Origin: Acidobacteria bacterium 28-9
GTDB lineage: Bacteria; Acidobacteriota; Blastocatellia; Pyrinomonadales; Pyrinomonadaceae
NCBI GenBank assembly: GCA_002050355.1
Contig: MWYY01000033.1
Coordinates: 1 to 40,285 of the forward strand
Length of the DNA: 40,285 bases
Reading direction: 5' to 3'
The notes below the pieces were generated by a model. It was not told where the DNA came from. It saw nothing but the letters and a program-made list of their open reading frames with translations, and ran no database searches. Shown here in pieces: positions 16,371 through 24,527 of this stretch. A program made the translations under genes and the position numbers. The first letter of the stretch is position 1. Every line of letters begins with the position of its first letter.

Positions 16371-17807
16371 TTAGGTCGATAAGTTTTTCAGATTATTCTC
16401 CTTGTCTTTTAACACATCCAAAATTTTATCGTGAATGCCGCCAAAACCGCCGTTTGACATAATGGCGACAACATCGCCTGGCTTTAATTCGGGTGCCAGA
16501 TGTTCGACGATTGAGTCGGCATCAGGGAAACCAAACGCCGGTTTGCCTTGCATCTCAATGTCTTCGACGAGTTCGGCAACGTCTAAAACCTTGCCGAGTT
16601 CACTTGCCTTCGATGTGTTATAAACTCCTGCGATAATGACGTAATCGGCGTAAACAAAGGCTTTTGCATAAGGCTCCTGGAAAACCGCAAGCCGCGAAGA
16701 CCACGAGCGCGGCTCGAAAACGGCAATCAAGCGTCTGCCGTCGTACTTCACTCGCAAGGCTTTTAAGGTTTCTTCGACTGCCGTCGGGTGATGCGCGAAA
16801 TCGTCAATAACGGTTACGCCGCGTTCGACGCCGCGAATTTCAACGCGCCGTTTGACGCTTTTAAAACTCAAAAACGCTTCTTGAATTTTCTCACGGGAGA
16901 CGTTCCAGGCATCGGCGGCAATTATGACTGCCAGACAATTTCTGACATTGAATTCGCCGATAAGATGGGTTTCGAATTCGCCGAAAGAATGTCCGTCTTT
17001 GAAAACCTTAAAACGCGTAACATCAGTCGAAAAATCAATATAACGCGCCTGCCATTTCGCATCGTCGCCGGTGCCGAACGTTTCGACCGTTGTATGGATT
17101 CTGCCGTCCATCTCGTTCAAAACTTCGCGCGCCACAGGCGAATCAATTCCGACAATCAAGCGTCCGTTCGACGGAACGAGATTCATCAACCGCGAAAATT
17201 CAAACTTAATGTCTTCGAGGTTGTCGTAAATATCGGCGTGGTCAAACTCGATGTTGTTGACAATCGCAATCTCCGGCAAATAGTGCATAAACTTCGGCTT
17301 TTTATCAAAATAAGCCGTGTCGTATTCGTCGCCTTCGATGATAAAATAATCGCTCTCCGAAACGCGAAAGCTGGCGCCGAAATTCTGCACGATGCCCCCG
17401 ACCAGAAAACTCGGATTCAATCCGCCGACTTCGCAAAGCCACGTCGCAATACTCGTCGTCGTCGTTTTTCCGTGCGTTCCGGCAACAACCAAACTGCGCC
17501 GTCCGCGTATAAATTCTTCTTTAACGATTTCTGCCTGCGAACGATAAACGAGTTTGCGGTTCAAGACTTCTTCAAGCTCCGGGTTGCCGCGCGAAATCGT
17601 ATTGCCGACGATAATGCAATCGGCGCCGATGCCTGCGTTTTCGGCTTTGTAACCGTTGATAATTTCAATGCCTAGCGATTCCAACTGCGTTGACATCGGC
17701 GGATAAACATTCTGGTCCGAACCCGTAACTTTATGCCCGCGCGCTTGCAGCATTCCGGCTAAACTAGCCATTGCCGTCCCGCAAATTCCGATTAAATGAT
17801 AATGCAT
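16371..17807 (-). CDS. mpl: UDP-N-acetylmuramate:tripeptide ligase Mpl (murein recycling)
   Basis: About 478 aa. Mpl joins recovered L-Ala-gamma-D-Glu-meso-DAP to UDP-MurNAc, returning murein peptides to precursor synthesis. Mur-ligase features: N-terminal HLIGICGTAMASLAGML, ATP loop AGTHGKTTTTS, central NNIEFDHADIYDN, DDFAHHPTAVEETL and FEPRSWSSR. I place the start at MHYHLIGI (17807), because the corresponding bases beyond attR, the presumed former mpl leader, offer only this ATG. The current frame gains an extra ATG TTT at 17813-17808, supplied by inserted DNA. The first nine codons lie in the 29-bp attL, so an integrative element now lies against its 5' end and replaces its promoter region. 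Confidence 0.92.
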   Translation of the reverse strand: MHYHLIGICGTAMASLAGMLQARGHKVTGSDQNVYPPMSTQLESLGIEIINGYKAENAGIGADCIIVGNTISRGNPELEEVLNRKLVYRSQAEIVKEEFIRGRRSLVVAGTHGKTTTTSIATWLCEVGGLNPSFLVGGIVQNFGASFRVSESDYFIIEGDEYDTAYFDKKPKFMHYLPEIAIVNNIEFDHADIYDNLEDIKFEFSRLMNLVPSNGRLIVGIDSPVAREVLNEMDGRIHTTVETFGTGDDAKWQARYIDFSTDVTRFKVFKDGHSFGEFETHLIGEFNVRNCLAVIIAADAWNVSREKIQEAFLSFKSVKRRVEIRGVERGVTVIDDFAHHPTAVEETLKALRVKYDGRRLIAVFEPRSWSSRLAVFQEPYAKAFVYADYVIIAGVYNTSKASELGKVLDVAELVEDIEMQGKPAFGFPDADSIVEHLAPELKPGDVVAIMSNGGFGGIHDKILDVLKDKENNLKNLST

Positions 17808-17811
17808 AAAC
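17783..17811. other. attL: 29-bp repeat overlapping mpl codons 1-9
   Basis: Identical over 29 bp to 24271-24299. Bases immediately left (CCCGC) belong to mpl and differ from those left of attR (AATAAT). Similarity weakens right of 17811 but does not vanish (TTATTTTA is shared three bases later). Confidence 0.85.
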
Positions 17812-17814
17812 ATG

Positions 17815-17995
17815 TTATTTTACTTGTATTTACCTAGTGTTACGGAGTGTTATCTATTGAATTTCCCAAAGTATATTATCACTCGAAAACACTCTGTAAT
17901 AGCAAGTAACAGATACGTTTTTAGATACAGGAAACTTGCGAAAGAAATCAATACTTTGATAGACTGCTTTTGCCTGAAAACAGCATATTCAGTTT
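17815..17995 (+). repeat. Left copy of an approx. 180-bp direct repeat inside the element
   Basis: Aligned by eye to 23138-23313 with roughly four of five bases equal and few gaps: shared blocks include CCTAGTGTTA, ATTGAATTTC, TACGTTTTTAGATACAG, TTGATAGACTGCTTTTGC and ATATTCAGTT. It also contains an inner inverted pair, TTACGGAGTGTT (from 17840) with AACACTCTGTAA (17888-17899), one mismatch in 12. No ORF. It lies between attL and the cargo gene; the rest of the gap to 18271 is AT-rich with a hairpin at 18006 and a possible promoter at 18134. Confidence 0.75.
17902..17939 (+). other. Stem-loop 1 with loop TACGTTTTTAGATACAG
   Basis: GCAAGT (17902-17907) pairs with ACTTGC (17934-17939) around a loop holding TACGTTTTTAGATACAG (17914-17930). 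The loop word recurs exactly at 23238 and 24183, each time flanked by a different but self-complementary stem. Confidence 0.6.
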
Positions 17996-18005
17996 TCAAA
18001 TATCA

Positions 18006-18039
18006 AAGCCTTTAGTTGTGAACTAACTAAGGGCTTTTT
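18006..18039 (+). terminator. Terminator-like hairpin right of attL
   Basis: AAGCC/GGGCTT and TTAGTT/AACTAA form a hairpin followed by TTTTTC TTTTT on the plus strand. A matching hairpin with changed but complementary stem bases follows attR at 24330. No plus-strand gene ends before it, so it may instead act in the leader of mpl on the other strand. Confidence 0.5.
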
Positions 18040-18133
18040 CTTTTTGGATCTTATTAAGAAATATGATTTTCTGCAAATATGCTTTGTTCCATACCGTTAA
18101 TTTTGATTTTTGTTTGTATCTTAATTTTGATCC

Positions 18134-18139
18134 TATAAT
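18134..18139 (+). promoter_or_regulatory. Possible -10 box (TATAAT) for the large nuclease gene
   Basis: A perfect TATAAT lies 133 bp before the ATG at 18272 in AT-rich DNA. The -35 region (TGTTTG at 17 bp) is poor. Weak assignment. Confidence 0.3.
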
Positions 18140-18271
18140 GTTAAAAACAATTGTATTTTTATAACATAAAACTCTATTTGTTTTTAGTGAACTTTTACTC
18201 TAATATTTGCATCTAAGCGGCATTCCAAACAAATTCTAGTTCAAACATTTTAAAAATTAAGGATATTAACT

Positions 18272-21200
18272 ATGACTTTTCCCCGAAGCCCGAAGGTTAA
18301 AACTATACCTGTATCGCGTCAATTTATTTCATTTGTAATTGTTGCAGTATTTGTTTTGCAGCACCTTTTAATAATTTCGCCGCAATCAGTAAAAGCCAAT
18401 AATACTTTACAATCAATTCCATTTACTCAAAACTGGTCTAATATTGGAATAGTAACTATTGATGATGATTGGTCTAATGTTCCGGGTATTGTTGGATATC
18501 GGGGAGACGCACTGACTAGCTCACCCGGCACGAATCCTCAAACTATTGTTGCCGATGGTACATCAACCCCGATTGATGTCAATGCCAATCAAACCAATCC
18601 AAATACTTTTGCTACAGGCGGCGTTAGTGAGTTTCACACAACAGACCCGGTTGTTGCTTTACAGGGATCCGGTACGGCTGATGCCCCCTTTCTGCTAATC
18701 AATCTGAACACAAACGGACAGTCTAATATAAATGTCGCCTATAATCTTAGAGACATTGACGGTTCAACTGACAACGCTGTTCAGCCTGTTGCCCTTCAAT
18801 ACCGTATTGGCAATACAGGAAACTTTACGAACTTGCCTGATGGATTTGTGGCTGATGCTTCGACGGGACCAAGTTTAGCTACATTAGTAACACCAGTTAG
18901 CGTTAATCTTCCATCAGCGGCTAATAATCAATCTATAGTTCAAGTAAGAATTATCACTAATGATGCTGTAGGTAGCGACGAGTGGGTTGGGATTGATAAT
19001 ATTTCAATTACGGGTTCTTTTATTTCAGTTCCTACCAACCAAGCACCGAGCATAAACGCTTCTACAAACCCAATTACAACAGTTAATCAAGATGCTGCGC
19101 CGTTTACGGTGAATCTTACCGGCAGCGACGACAATAGTATTTACAACTGGTCAGCGACTGCAGGAACCGGCATAGCTTCTGTTAACGTTATTGCTGGACA
19201 AGGAACCGCTAATGCTACATATAATGTGGTTTTACAATCAGGTTTTAGTGGAACTGCCAGTTTTACAGCTTCACTTTCTGACAATTTTAATTCACCTGTT
19301 TCGCGTACAGTCAACATTGCCGTCACGCCATCGACTCCTAATAACCCACCGTCAATTGGCGCATTAACAAATCCTGTGACAACCGTTAACCAAGATGCAG
19401 CACCTTTTGTTGTTAATCTCTCGGGCTCCGACGACAATAATGTTTATAACTGGTCGGCAACTCCAGGAACCGGCGTCTCAGCCGTAACGGTAAGCGGCGG
19501 ACAAGGCACACCTAACTTAACCTATTCTGTAACGCTTCAATCTGGATTTAGCGGAACTGCAAGCTTTACGGCAAAACTCTCAGATAACGTAAACGCACAA
19601 GTTTCAAGCAATGTAACCATCGCTGTTACGCCTGCTCCCCCACCTCCCCTTGATCATGTTGTTATCAGTCAAGTTTATGGAGGCGGTGGAAACAGCGGCG
19701 CTACCTACCAAAACGATTTCGTTGAGCTTTTTAATCCCGACACTGTTCCCCACGAACTGTCTGGCTGGACAATCCAATACGGTTCTGCAACAGGCTCAAC
19801 CTGGCAGGTTCAACCACTTGGCGGTACTATTGCGCCGGGTGAGTATTATCTGATTAAGCTTGCTTCGAACGGCGCTGTTGGGGATGTTGTTCCCGAGGCA
19901 AATATCAGCGGCACCCTTAACCTTAGTGGAACTAACGGTAAAGTTGCTCTAGTACGCAATGGTGATGCACTTGAAGGCTGCGTAATTGGTGATCCAGTAG
20001 TTGACCTTGTTGGGTACGGGACTGCCAACTGTCGAGAAGGCGCAACTAACGCTCCAACTTTGTCCAACGCTACTGCTGCCTTTCGTAAGAATAGCGGCTT
20101 TGCTGATACAAACGTGAACGGCTCCGACTTCGTTGCAAGCACCCCTAACGCAAATCGGCGTACTACACCAATCGTCGAGCTTCCGCCATCAACACTTAGC
20201 AGCGATCCGCGGAACAGCGGCTTTAACGCGCCGCGTGATGCAAGTATCACCGTCACGTTCACCGAACCGGTTGATGTTGCTGAAGGGTGGTTCTCAATTT
20301 CTTGCGTGAACACCGGTTTACATAACAGCGCCACTGTAGCGTCAGGCGGTGCAAACGCTTGGATAATCATCCCGAACGTCAATTTTGAGCCGGGCGAACA
20401 GTGTACTGTCACAGTAAACAAACAGTTCGTACGCGATTCTGATGATGATGATTTAGCTCCGAATACTGACCTATTGACATCAAACTATAACGCAACGTTC
20501 ACCGTAGCAACTGGCGCTGCGCCATCTTATCCGTTAGATGTACATGTTATGTTCGGTAATCCAAGCAACGCAACTTCTGATATTAACAACCCAAATAACT
20601 TTCTGATGGAGAAACCCGAATATTCGCTCTCGTATAACAGAGAACGAGGCACGCCGAATTGGGTAAGCTGGCATTTGGCTGATGAATGGATCGGCACCCT
20701 ACAACGATTCGATACTTTCCGCGCTGATCCGGCTGTTCCGGCGGATTGGTACCGGGTGACGCACGTCGATTATACGTCATCCGGATTTGATCGCGGTCAT
20801 ATGGTGCCGAATGCAGACCGTGACCCCGAAACTTCAACTCCGATTAATCAAGCGACCTTCCTGATGACAAATATGATTCCGCAAGCCCCGGATAACAATC
20901 AGGGACCTTGGGCAAATATGGAAAATTACTTGCGCACACTATTACCGGATAACGAGATTTACATTGTTGCGGGGGGCGCGGGAACAGGCGGAACAGGCAG
21001 TAACGGAGGAGTTACGACTACTTTCGCTAATGGCAAAGTGACAGTTCCAGCTCAGACTTGGAAAGTCGCACTCGTAATTCCGAAAGACAGCGGCGATGAT
21101 ATAGCGCGTGTAACCGCATCAGCCAGAACCGTTGCCGTTATTATGCCGAACGTCCAAGGCATCAGAAATAACGCCTGGACAAATTACCTGACAAGCGTTG

Positions 21201-22942
21201 ATCAGGTTGAAGCGTTAACCGGTTACGACTTTTACGAAAACTTGCCGGATGCTATTGAAAATAGCGTAGAAGCAGGCATTGATGGAAACAATCCTCCGGG
21301 AACGGCGAATCAGATTGTCAATGTCGCGGAAGACAATTCTGTTTCAATTACATTGAACGCGGCTGGCGCAGGTATTTTAACTTATGAAATTGTCAGTCAA
21401 CCTACAAACGGCTTGCTTTCGGGAACCGGCGCAAACCGCACTTACACGCCAAACCCTAATTTTGCTGGAACTGACAGTTTTACCTTTCGTGTCAAACAGG
21501 GACAACAATACTCCAATGTGTCGACAGTTACGATCAATGTTACGGAAGTAAATGATGCTCCGGTTGCCGGTAATGATACTGTAACTATTGCAGAAGATAG
21601 CGGGGCGAATGCAGTTAATGTGCTTGCCAATGACAATGACATCGACGGCGACACGCTCACTATTACGGCAAAGACCGACGGCACAAATGGAACGGTCGCG
21701 ATCACTGGCGGCCCAGGTCTTACTTACACACCCGCTGCCAACTTCGACGGATCAGACTCGTTCACCTATACGGTTAGTGACGGCAGAGGAGGCACACAAA
21801 CCGCTACTGTTTCGGTTACGGTTAGCCCGGTTAACGATTCTCCTACGTTTTTGAGCATTACTCCTTTGTCACAAACGGTTGATTATAGCGACGCTGTTCA
21901 ACCAATCGCCATTACGGTAGAAGACGTAGACAACACCGGCGGATCGCTCGTCGTTACCGCTACTGGATTACCAAATGGACTAACGCTGGCACAAACGCCG
22001 GGCAAGGGTGAGTGGACGATCTCGGGCAAAGCGAATGTTCCGGCTGCTACCTACCAAGTACAGCTAAAGGTAACCGACTCGCTTGAAGTCGTTACTGCCG
22101 GCCCTGTTACGATTACTGTGGCTAAGGAGAAAACGGCAACTGAATATACTGGTGATTTTGATTTAATGACGGCAGGTCCTGCCATTAACACTGCTACTGT
22201 AAGGCTCGCCGCCAAACTCACGCAGGATAATGACGGTTCTGCCGGTGATATTACAAAAGCAACTGCCACCTTCAAAATCTCCAAATTCAACGGCGGTACT
22301 GTTTCCTACACGGTTTCAAATGTACCGGTCAATGCGAATGGCGAAGCACTAACTACCTTTACTTTGCCAGCTGATACTTACTCGATAACTGTTGATGTTG
22401 ACGGCGGCAATGGATACTGGACTGCTAATCCTATATATCCTGGACTGCTCAATATTACTGTACCAACAGATGAGCTGCGTTCAAGCGGCGGCGGCTGGGT
22501 TCCGGATGCAACAAGCGCTAGTGGTAAAGCAAATTTTGCATTCAGTGTTACCTCAAGTAAAAACGGGCAGCCGAAAGGCAATGCCTCATTTAGCTTCAGT
22601 GCTGGTGGATTTAACTATCTTGTCAAGGGCAATAGTTGGCAAGATGGATACTTGCAATTTTCAGCTGAACCCGGAGTAACTCCAACGGTTTTCACACGAT
22701 CAAACCTTAAGGGTAATTGTACGGTTCAGAAAATTGACCCAGTGAGTGGTTTGGTGGTCGCTTCATTTGGTAACTATACGTTTGAGATTTTTACTAGGGA
22801 TGGCGATCTGCTAAATCCCCGTCAACGTGATTCATACTCAATTACTGTGCGGGATAACTCAAGCGCAGTCTTCCATCAGGTAGGATCGCAAAATTCGCTT
22901 ATCACACTTGGCGGCGGCAACATCACTAACAAGGCTAAGTAA
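18272..22942 (+). CDS. Very large exported multidomain DNA/RNA non-specific endonuclease
   Basis: 1556 aa, cargo of the integrative element. Layout: hydrophobic export signal (about residues 10-40); a beta-rich domain with a DEWVGIDNISITG close (about 42-250); two near-identical Ig-like repeats (256-355 and 357-455, both with TTVNQDAAPF); a lamin-tail-type domain (VVISQVYGGGGNSG, FVELFNP, about 460-625); a Big_5-like domain (about 640-745); the NUC1/Endonuclease_NS domain (about 750-1000) with DRGH at 840-843 and NNQGPW at 875-880; at least three Ig/cadherin-like repeats (about 1010-1290); and a unique C-terminus. The DRGH His is the general base, and the Asn region binds the metal in Serratia-type nucleases. 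It should act outside the cell or on its surface on DNA and RNA; C-terminal repeats suggest attachment. An own terminator follows. Confidence 0.88.
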   Translation: MTFPRSPKVKTIPVSRQFISFVIVAVFVLQHLLIISPQSVKANNTLQSIPFTQNWSNIGIVTIDDDWSNVPGIVGYRGDALTSSPGTNPQTIVADGTSTPIDVNANQTNPNTFATGGVSEFHTTDPVVALQGSGTADAPFLLINLNTNGQSNINVAYNLRDIDGSTDNAVQPVALQYRIGNTGNFTNLPDGFVADASTGPSLATLVTPVSVNLPSAANNQSIVQVRIITNDAVGSDEWVGIDNISITGSFISVPTNQAPSINASTNPITTVNQDAAPFTVNLTGSDDNSIYNWSATAGTGIASVNVIAGQGTANATYNVVLQSGFSGTASFTASLSDNFNSPVSRTVNIAVTPSTPNNPPSIGALTNPVTTVNQDAAPFVVNLSGSDDNNVYNWSATPGTGVSAVTVSGGQGTPNLTYSVTLQSGFSGTASFTAKLSDNVNAQVSSNVTIAVTPAPPPPLDHVVISQVYGGGGNSGATYQNDFVELFNPDTVPHELSGWTIQYGSATGSTWQVQPLGGTIAPGEYYLIKLASNGAVGDVVPEANISGTLNLSGTNGKVALVRNGDALEGCVIGDPVVDLVGYGTANCREGATNAPTLSNATAAFRKNSGFADTNVNGSDFVASTPNANRRTTPIVELPPSTLSSDPRNSGFNAPRDASITVTFTEPVDVAEGWFSISCVNTGLHNSATVASGGANAWIIIPNVNFEPGEQCTVTVNKQFVRDSDDDDLAPNTDLLTSNYNATFTVATGAAPSYPLDVHVMFGNPSNATSDINNPNNFLMEKPEYSLSYNRERGTPNWVSWHLADEWIGTLQRFDTFRADPAVPADWYRVTHVDYTSSGFDRGHMVPNADRDPETSTPINQATFLMTNMIPQAPDNNQGPWANMENYLRTLLPDNEIYIVAGGAGTGGTGSNGGVTTTFANGKVTVPAQTWKVALVIPKDSGDDIARVTASARTVAVIMPNVQGIRNNAWTNYLTSVDQVEALTGYDFYENLPDAIENSVEAGIDGNNPPGTANQIVNVAEDNSVSITLNAAGAGILTYEIVSQPTNGLLSGTGANRTYTPNPNFAGTDSFTFRVKQGQQYSNVSTVTINVTEVNDAPVAGNDTVTIAEDSGANAVNVLANDNDIDGDTLTITAKTDGTNGTVAITGGPGLTYTPAANFDGSDSFTYTVSDGRGGTQTATVSVTVSPVNDSPTFLSITPLSQTVDYSDAVQPIAITVEDVDNTGGSLVVTATGLPNGLTLAQTPGKGEWTISGKANVPAATYQVQLKVTDSLEVVTAGPVTITVAKEKTATEYTGDFDLMTAGPAINTATVRLAAKLTQDNDGSAGDITKATATFKISKFNGGTVSYTVSNVPVNANGEALTTFTLPADTYSITVDVDGGNGYWTANPIYPGLLNITVPTDELRSSGGGWVPDATSASGKANFAFSVTSSKNGQPKGNASFSFSAGGFNYLVKGNSWQDGYLQFSAEPGVTPTVFTRSNLKGNCTVQKIDPVSGLVVASFGNYTFEIFTRDGDLLNPRQRDSYSITVRDNSSAVFHQVGSQNSLITLGGGNITNKAK

Positions 22943-22962
22943 TCGAAGTAGTGTTTAGTAAG

Positions 22963-23001
22963 AAAAAGCGGGTTAGCTTATAATAAGCTACCCGCTTTTT
23001 T
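22963..23001 (+). terminator. Strong terminator after the large nuclease gene
   Basis: AAAGCGGGTTAGCTTA pairs with TAAGCTACCCGCTTT (stem of about 14 bp with one mismatch), then six T. It can work on both strands. The remaining gap to the recombinase at 23325 is AT-rich and holds the second 180-bp repeat; nothing else was seen. Confidence 0.9.
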
Positions 23002-23137
23002 AGAATTTGAGCCTAAATACATTAAAAACTACATTTTATTAAATTATAATCTGCAATTTGACTATAAATATATAATTTATCTCTACTTGGTAGAGTAAGA
23101 AATAAATCTCATATGAAACTTTGCTTGATAACCCCTA

Positions 23138-23313
23138 TATTTTACTTATACTTAACCTAGTGTTATAGAGTATTATTTATTGAATTTCTCAAAGTATTAT
23201 TTCACTCAAAAACACTCCGTAAAAGCAGGTAACAGATACGTTTTTAGATACAGGTAACTTGGCAAGTCTATTTTGAATTTGATAGACTGCTTTTGCTTGA
23301 AACATATTCAGTT
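23138..23313 (+). repeat. Right copy of the approx. 180-bp direct repeat
   Basis: Partner of 17815-17995. It ends at the point where the recombinase reading frame begins, which suggests that the repeat replaced the missing 5' part of that gene. Confidence 0.75.
23226..23264 (+). other. Stem-loop 2 with loop TACGTTTTTAGATACAG
   Basis: GCAGGTAAC (23226-23234) pairs with GTAACTTGGC (23255-23264) with one bulge, one G-T pair and one mismatch. The loop word is at 23238-23254. Confidence 0.5.
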
Positions 23314-23324
23314 GTGAACACGCC

Positions 23325-24158
23325 TTGCAACCGGCAACTTACAAACGCTATTACTTTTCTTGTCAGACTTTGAAAAATTATTTTGGAAAAGTCAAAACTA
23401 ATAGAATTGAAACAAAAGACATCGAAAAATTTATCGTTTGGCGATGCGCTCAAACTTCAAAAAAGACCGGCGCATTTATCACACGCGAAACGGTCAACCA
23501 CGAACTATTAACCGTCAAGATGATTTTTAACCGTTTGATTGAATCAAAAATCCTGCGTGATAACCCGGCGCGAACTGTCAAAAGACTTTCCGAAAATGAG
23601 AGACAGTTTCACGTTTTAACTTTTGATGAAGAGAAGAAATATCTTCTTGCTTGTCCGCAGCCGCTTCAAGACGTGGCAGCCGTAATGCTTGAAACGGGTA
23701 TGCGATGCGGCGAAGTGTACCGCCTTCGTCGTCAGGATATTTATCTCGATAAAGGCTTTCTGAAAGTGGTAAAAGGTAAAACAAAAACATCCGTCCGAAA
23801 CGTGCATTTGTCGGAGAGAGCAAAAGAAGTTTTGCGCTATCGAATCAACAAGTTTTCCGGCGAAAATCTTTTTCCCCAGGGCGATAAAGACTTTGCAAAG
23901 CCAACCGACAGCTTAGATAAACAGCATCTTACGACAATTGGGAATTTAGGCTATAAGTTCCGGCTCTACGATTGCCGACATACCTTTGCAACCCGCGCCG
24001 TAGAAAATGGCATTGACCTTTTAACGCTTTCGCAAATTTTAGGACATTCCAGTTTGAGAATGGTTGCGCGTTATTCGCATCCGTCCGAATCATTCAAAGC
24101 CGATGCAATCAAGCGAATGGAAAAGGCAAAAATTAAAAGTAAGGCAAAAGCAGTCTAA
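23325..24158 (+). CDS. Tyrosine recombinase/integrase lacking its N-terminal part
   Basis: About 277 codons from a TTG at 23325; no ATG or ribosome site fits, and TGA at 23298 closes the frame upstream. The sequence opens in the middle of the SAM-like core-binding domain (ATYKRYYFSCQTLKNYFG), so an arm-binding N-terminus and the start of the core domain are missing. The catalytic domain is complete: ETGMRCGEVYRL (Arg), VKGKTKTSVRNV (Lys), LYDCRHTFATRA (Arg and the second His; the first His position is Tyr, as I recall in many related integrases), and LGHSSLRMVARYSHP (His/Tyr nucleophile). Its place next to attR suggests that it catalysed insertion into mpl. Since the core-binding domain is damaged, it may now be inactive. 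Confidence 0.85.
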   Translation: MQPATYKRYYFSCQTLKNYFGKVKTNRIETKDIEKFIVWRCAQTSKKTGAFITRETVNHELLTVKMIFNRLIESKILRDNPARTVKRLSENERQFHVLTFDEEKKYLLACPQPLQDVAAVMLETGMRCGEVYRLRRQDIYLDKGFLKVVKGKTKTSVRNVHLSERAKEVLRYRINKFSGENLFPQGDKDFAKPTDSLDKQHLTTIGNLGYKFRLYDCRHTFATRAVENGIDLLTLSQILGHSSLRMVARYSHPSESFKADAIKRMEKAKIKSKAKAV

Positions 24159-24176
24159 AGCGGTTAAATTCAAAAT

Positions 24177-24207
24177 AAAGGTTACGTTTTTAGATACAGT
24201 AGCCTTT
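24177..24207 (+). other. Stem-loop 3 with loop TACGTTTTTAGATACAG
   Basis: AAAGGTTAC (24177-24185) pairs with GTAGCCTTT (24199-24207), nine pairs with one G-T. The shared word at 24183-24199 overlaps the stem ends. It lies 18 bp after the recombinase stop and could also end that transcript. Confidence 0.55.
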
Positions 24208-24270
24208 TCAATCCACTTGCAAACGTCTATAACTATTTACCAAATAAGCACTTACACAATCAAAAATAAT

Positions 24271-24299
24271 AAATTCCGATTAAATGATAATGCATAAAC
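24271..24299. other. attR: 29-bp repeat matching the mpl start
   Basis: Exact copy of 17783-17811. It is not followed by mpl codons on its left side (AATAAT instead), so it marks the far end of the inserted segment. The sequence to its right is probably the former upstream region of mpl. The gap 24159-24527 holds stem-loop 3, attR, a hairpin at 24330 and AT-rich DNA. Confidence 0.85.
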
Positions 24300-24329
24300 G
24301 TCTTATTTTATTATGTTTACAAAGTATTG

Positions 24330-24363
24330 AAGTCGTTAGTTCTCCAACAACTAACGACTTTTT
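24330..24363 (+). terminator. Hairpin right of attR, terminator-like on the plus strand
   Basis: AAGTCGTTAGTT and AACTAACGACTT are exact complements around CTCCAAC, followed by a T-rich tail. Before insertion this would have lain about 40 bp upstream of mpl. It matches the hairpin at 18006 in position, flanks and inner stem. Confidence 0.6.
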
Positions 24364-24527
24364 CTTTTCTTGGATTGTAGTAAGAAAGGTAAGTATCCGC
24401 AAATTTGATTTATTAAACAAAATCAAATTTTCGCGGACGCGGTTTTTCGGTCGGGTAAACAAAGTGTTTGGCGGAAAACCATTTGATGAAGCTGATTTCG
24501 CTTGGTAACTGCCCGGTACAAACAGTT

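Follow-up and report, generated by a model that had tools for sequence, protein, structure and literature searches.

Why do the first codons of mpl occur twice within a few kilobases of one another, with a tyrosine recombinase beside the second copy, in a member of the Pyrinomonadaceae? The locus lies in a stretch of 40,285 nucleotides (nt) from Acidobacteria bacterium 28-9 (contig MWYY01000033.1), here called the window, and an initial annotation of this sequence had read the unit between the two copies as a small integrative element with an exported nuclease as its cargo. We propose that the unit is very probably a decayed member of a family of tyrosine-recombinase elements, which end at the start codons of many housekeeping genes and likely insert by way of the first codons of these genes. 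The family, recognised by its integrase and by a repeat that we call R, is dispersed in the Pyrinomonadaceae (Acidobacteriota).

The annotation had noted an exact 29-bp direct repeat with the start of mpl at one copy and a recombinase beside the other, and this is confirmed: the copies lie at 17783-17811 and 24271-24299, 6488 bp from start to start (95% over 40 bp), and the longest exact direct repeat in 200 order-1 Markov sequences made as a control for this 8.5 kb was 16 bp. The left copy forms the 5' end of mpl, whose ATG in agreement with its relatives (N-terminus MHYHLIGI) is at 17807-17805. An open reading frame (ORF) matching Phage_integrase (PF00589) lies beside the right copy, and a protein of 1556 amino acids with LTD and Endonuclease_NS domains is encoded between them. 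R, which is dispersed through the genome, is a second repeat in the window (17815-17999 and 23137-23318), a 151-nt stretch of it recurring at 17829-17979 and 23152-23302 with 83% identity. From left to right the order is mpl, core, R1, a terminator-like hairpin, the nuclease, R2 with its own degenerate core, the truncated integrase, the right motif, core and a remnant of R:

16371..17813, minus strand: mpl, the target gene (NCBIfam TIGR01081, 458 bits, above cut-off; start judged from relatives)
17783..17811, no strand: left attachment core, the start and first codons of mpl (29-bp exact repeat; pair test)
17815..17999, plus strand: R1, left end of the element, its edge 7 nt from the native mpl ATG (dispersed repeat)
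17914-17930, plus strand: arm-like motif of R1, TACGTTTTTAGATACAG, 99 nt from the edge (motif alignment)
18004..18044, plus strand: terminator-like hairpin and T-run after R, reading into the element (alignments, judged by eye)
18272..22942, plus strand: large LTD / Endonuclease_NS / Big_9 protein between R1 and R2 (Pfam)
23113..23131, plus strand: degenerate attachment core before R2, unlike mpl, ATGAAACTTTGCTTGATAA
23137..23318, plus strand: R2, a second left end, joined to the truncated integrase (repeat comparison)
23325..24158, plus strand: tyrosine recombinase, N-terminally truncated, model positions 74-352, catalytic region retained (PF00589; alignment)
24183..24199, plus strand: right-end arm-like motif TACGTTTTTAGATACAG, same sequence and orientation as in R1
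24271..24299, no strand: right attachment core, a displaced copy of the mpl 5' end (29-bp exact repeat)
24303..24386, plus strand: remnant of a further R (outer edge and part of the terminator), outside the right core (74% over 78 columns against the R1 terminator region)

The proposal that an integrase made the unit, with the 5' end of mpl as attachment site, is supported by these data, and one end of the element now lies directly upstream of mpl. R forms the conserved left end, of about 190 nt, of each element, with the integrase at the right end. It gave 12 BLAST matches on nine contigs of the same genome (278-base query from the R end) and is present in 10 of 59 genomes searched, this one included. 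When aligned, the copies end sharply at TTATTTTAC on their outer side; C34 was excluded when the model of R was built, and sequence outside the edge is not part of it. In 19 of 33 copies a motif resembling TACATTTTTAGATACA begins 99 nt in from the edge, and six others have it at 89-100 nt; the pattern used did not pick it up in the last eight. The motif is found again, with its orientation unchanged, between the integrase stop codon and the right core; 14 right ends were examined, and in 7 of the 12 where the motif could be placed a TTATG-like core starts 93-94 nt beyond it. R also contains an imperfect inverted repeat of about 24-30 bp (window 17830-17911), possibly a set of protein-binding sites. 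This inverted repeat and the recurrence of R had suggested an integron-like cassette array, an idea that was dropped, judged by the position of R and the Phage_integrase match alone, because most copies of R stand singly where genes begin and the recombinases belong with Phage_integrase. The idea that R is a known RNA was likewise rejected: an Rfam search gave nothing over R at E up to 0.5, its sole match lying outside R and far below the gathering score.

The position of R relative to genes carries much of the argument. In the loci scanned, 35 matches to R had E below 1e-5; 33 of them keep their outer edge and were counted, L135 and the second piece of L132 (the first piece is counted) being left out. 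At 20 of these 33 an outward ORF of at least 80 amino acids begins within 8 nt of the edge, in every case with ATG; the distance is exactly 7 nt in 17, 8 in one, 3 in one and 1 at mpl, whose native ATG is at 7. An ATG falls within 12 nt of 2.6% of random positions. Among the remaining 13 copies, one has a 79-amino-acid MoaD-like gene at R, four adjoin a target gene that is on the opposite side of the element (glyS, asnS twice, gmk), three lie behind a right core (L019, L043, L111) and one, L114, is inside a gene body. NCBIfam matches above cut-off were obtained for mpl, dnaX, ribE, lepA, bshA, ispD, gpmA, an arsenosugar-linked peroxidase-like protein, ppa, asnS, glyS and gmk, and below cut-off for HolB-like, CDP-alcohol phosphotransferase-like, MoaD-like, SDR and NudE-like proteins and a partial alaS. 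R stands at the start of twelve targets; for three others (asnS, glyS, gmk) the gene is on the integrase side and there is a matching left end, and three more (alaS, SDR, NudE-like) are known from the right end alone, giving 15 to 18 different targets and not one conserved target gene of the SXT/R391 or dusA type.

The first codons of the target stand at both ends of the element. For 11 left ends a candidate right end was available, and 10 of these 11 pairs share 13-38 bp of the target 5' end, covering the gene start, so that the flanking direct repeats equal the attachment core. Among 110 non-cognate pairs the shared stretch never exceeds 10 bp, apart from 14 bp between two asnS elements. The core approximates TTATG-N11-CATAA with the target ATG in one arm, a form that fits some cores poorly.

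An empty site was found at ispD. In four congeners (L272, L274, L275, L276) the gene for a protein of about 390 amino acids lies directly upstream of ispD, and about 10 kb separates the two in the genome of the window; the L270 and L271 contigs stop too soon to be compared in this way, and in one congener no match to ispD was obtained. The displaced native leader, ATG and first codons of ispD lie on the integrase side of this 10-kb element and R stands before the working gene, so that the joints of a 5'-end replacement can be read in sequence. A fifth congener, G004, has R before ispD (L273:2192-2334), the same target as that of the 10-kb element. At mpl, 7 of 8 congeners lack R in the sequence examined and one (G003) has it, and a third mpl start with R belongs to another genus (G026). 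The gene upstream of mpl differs among the congeners, a neighbourhood too variable for a test of the joint, and the one congener with a full-length UPF0182 gene has no mpl or R adjacent to it. Beside R at mpl in G003 is a DUF1206 gene (L103:4293-5147), and a gene that appears similar by eye lies behind a ppa-like core in the genome of the window (L019:9421-10275); this might reflect rearrangement through copies of R.

Each element likely replaced the original start region of its target with its own, because the elements end exactly at the start codons of many genes. In the mechanism that we envisage, the circular form would carry the target's first codons, and integration would leave the protein unchanged while the native leader, with its start codon, ends up on the opposite side of the element. 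R, or the sequence that follows the integrase where the target is a gene like asnS, would serve as the new leader and probable promoter. Promoter activity of R is presumed because expression of the gene must now depend on sequence upstream of its ATG. Further insertions at one ATG would accumulate and leave R remnants outside, and the N-terminal part that the window integrase has lost would bind the arm sites.

The integrases form one clade. Phage_integrase was found in the window copy and in the two relatives tested, in each case near one end of the element, and the R, K, R, H and Y columns of the alignment, which we take to be the catalytic residues, are invariant. In a tree of 33 rows, comprising near full-length integrases and that of the window, 11 start-codon rows and one gene-body row form one set (support 100/99); the tRNA labels of L142, L145, L172 and L175 in this tree were read from tRNA-like sequence rather than by ARAGORN. 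An integrase match at E up to 1e-50 was found in 18 of 119 genomes of the family, this genome included, a count that takes in distant kin of the integrase. For ten of the 17 right ends in this clade, the left end that matches gives confirmation (mpl, ispD, dnaX, gpmA, lepA, CDP-alcohol phosphotransferase-like, asnS twice, glyS, gmk); at three the target ORF continues beyond the end with no left end seen (alaS, SDR, and NudE-like with a broken start), three are assigned by similarity of the core only (ppa-like, ribE-like, G008:C61) and one is the gene-body case G004:C160. A complete tRNA gene was present in the scanned stretch of none of 15 clade rows compared with 17 of 44 other rows, of which at least L143 has no downstream sequence to scan; L195 and L203, right ends with short integrase remains, are not among these rows. 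We infer that tRNA targeting is ancestral. A wider proposal, to which we give about even chances, is that a single integrase clade switched from tRNA genes to start codons, with the ATG held in the TTATG half-site, and that a swap of the spacer of about 11 bp can readdress the elements among essential genes, whose leader and promoter they take over each time, which would make them portable promoter replacements across a bacterial family. Directly upstream of several full-length integrases, overlapping or abutting them, is a gene of about 250-330 amino acids (L111:7809-8582, L113:1630-2634, L040:11417-12217). Its product is possibly a partner of the integrase; CxxC-type motifs are seen by eye in the L113 and L040 genes, and Pfam gave no match for the L111 gene or its counterpart in G004:C160.

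Several observations weigh against the reading of the family as elements inserting at start codons. No consistent outward sigma-70 promoter site was found over 29 copies of R. R is absent from 19 viral-contig loci that have related integrases, of which the closest of full length shows 40% identity, and among the 132 loci listed by two motif scans of viral contigs no R match was convincing (best E 0.0055), while an integrase was matched once, weakly. L110 has an mpl-like core away from mpl, no target was identified for R at window R2, L131 and L136, and the element of G004:C160 lies inside a gene body, its ends sharing only 7 bp. Five of the 11 pairs span different contigs of draft genomes, and it is therefore only by inference that each of these is a single element; the genome of the window is itself a draft (86.6% complete, 117 contigs), as are the others. 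Lastly, some genes bear R in several genomes (mpl in three, the CDP-alcohol phosphotransferase-like gene in four), and some of these shared targets may be inherited and not new insertions.

Such sharing across species, together with the fixed 7 nt between R and so many housekeeping ATGs, is also what would be expected if R were the ancestral regulatory region of a housekeeping regulon, a promoter or leader RNA whose association with integrases is secondary. We regard this as very improbable, as R is missing at mpl in seven of the eight congeners, the same target codons recur at the integrase ends and Rfam has no match over R; the ispD empty site in four congeners, taken with the pair test, largely refutes it. 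Equally little weight falls on the idea that the window unit is an intact small cargo element, purpose-built for nuclease export. The nuclease gene does lie wholly between the two cores; however, the integrase is reduced to model positions 74-352, R2 lies inside the unit and an R remnant outside it, three stretches with homologues of the nuclease have no R, and other members of the family carry other genes. The annotation's cargo element, taken as intact, is thus not supported, and the link that it drew between nuclease export and wall recycling finds no support in a family whose other members differ in both targets and contents.

On our reading of the unit as a decayed family member, the window copy is degenerate, with a truncated integrase, an extra internal R and an R remnant outside. 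Full-length relatives in the alignment have about 347-357 amino acids, and the window integrase matches the family model only from position 74 of 352; because it has lost its N-terminal part and the middle of the element is rearranged around the nuclease gene, this copy has probably lost its mobility. Stacking followed by deletion is its likely origin. One version of this history, compatible with the reading of the family given above, is that two elements stacked at mpl and that sequence between them was then deleted, so that R1 and the nuclease derive from the first, R2 and the truncated integrase from the second. The presence of R1, R2 and an R remnant in one locus argues for it, as do the degenerate core of R2, which is unlike mpl, and the R remnants behind right cores also at dnaX and G003:C101. 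Against it, no intermediate was seen, and a search of the same genome with the R2 core (23113-23131), allowing two mismatches, found no other copy and hence no target gene for R2. We judge the arguments for this version to be evenly balanced.

Nor is the nuclease shown to be regular cargo, because the three stretches with its homologues lack R, though on one of their contigs, G003:C109, there is an R with an mpl-like core about 24 kb away. Other members of the family have different contents: the element of G003:C101, of about 12.6 kb, has a Prim-Pol/DUF3987 gene, G004:C160 encodes a primase-like protein besides its matches to terminase and tape-measure families, and the ispD element encodes a solute-binding protein and a MIP-family channel. 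Near R in three copies from the genome of the window are HTH_17 genes (one below the Pfam cut-off), which are possible excisionases. With the primase, terminase and tape-measure matches, these genes suggest that the elements might be remains of prophages or satellites.

How far does this family resemble known systems? The SXT/R391 elements are not known to have kin spread over many genes. SXT/R391 integrative and conjugative elements use a tyrosine recombinase and the 5' end of prfC, with nearly identical attP and attB, and so share integration at, and replacement of, a 5' end with the window family; however, they are conjugative and have one target gene for the family as against 15 to 18 (PMC2791158). 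With dusA integrases the sequence of the island replaces the 5' end of the gene and displaces the original one, as in the window family, at 21-bp semiconserved att sites and with putative promoters before and after integration, although these integrases are described as mostly specific to dusA whereas the window family targets as many as 18 genes and holds the start codon, at a fixed spacing, within its core (PMC4482086). The HK022 prophage has its attachment site by the start of torS, which an outward phage promoter without clear -10 and -35 elements drives, and resembles the window family in both respects, although it has one site and its promoter was shown by experiment, whereas that of R is postulated (PMC6814406). 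In HE-PICI one integrase clade occupies many sites in protein genes, with two motifs in one orientation, each at a set distance from the centre of attP; clade spread and motifs are as in the window family, but the targets are prophage late genes, which are disrupted with no replacement sequence (PMC10111431). Replacement of a 5' end is therefore known (SXT/prfC, dusA). The new part appears to be the spread of one clade over many start codons, for which no description was found in a literature search that left most subscription journals outside its reach.

If this is correct, dnaX, ispD, asnS, glyS, lepA and other genes are expressed from leaders supplied by mobile elements, and integration rewires core functions while leaving the proteins unbroken. 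A clade that moves among genes under one rule, the ATG in a core arm, would also offer a natural data set on target change in tyrosine integrases, as well as a supply of integrases directed to the starts of genes.

Two minor observations concern the spread of R. Weak R-like matches occur at L170:15980-16091 (E 0.005) and L171:15767-15857 (E 0.002), on Acidobacteria contigs with more distant integrases, and a contig labelled Naasia sp. (L195) has an integrase end, a ribE-like core and R of the Acidobacteriota family, possibly through a binning error.

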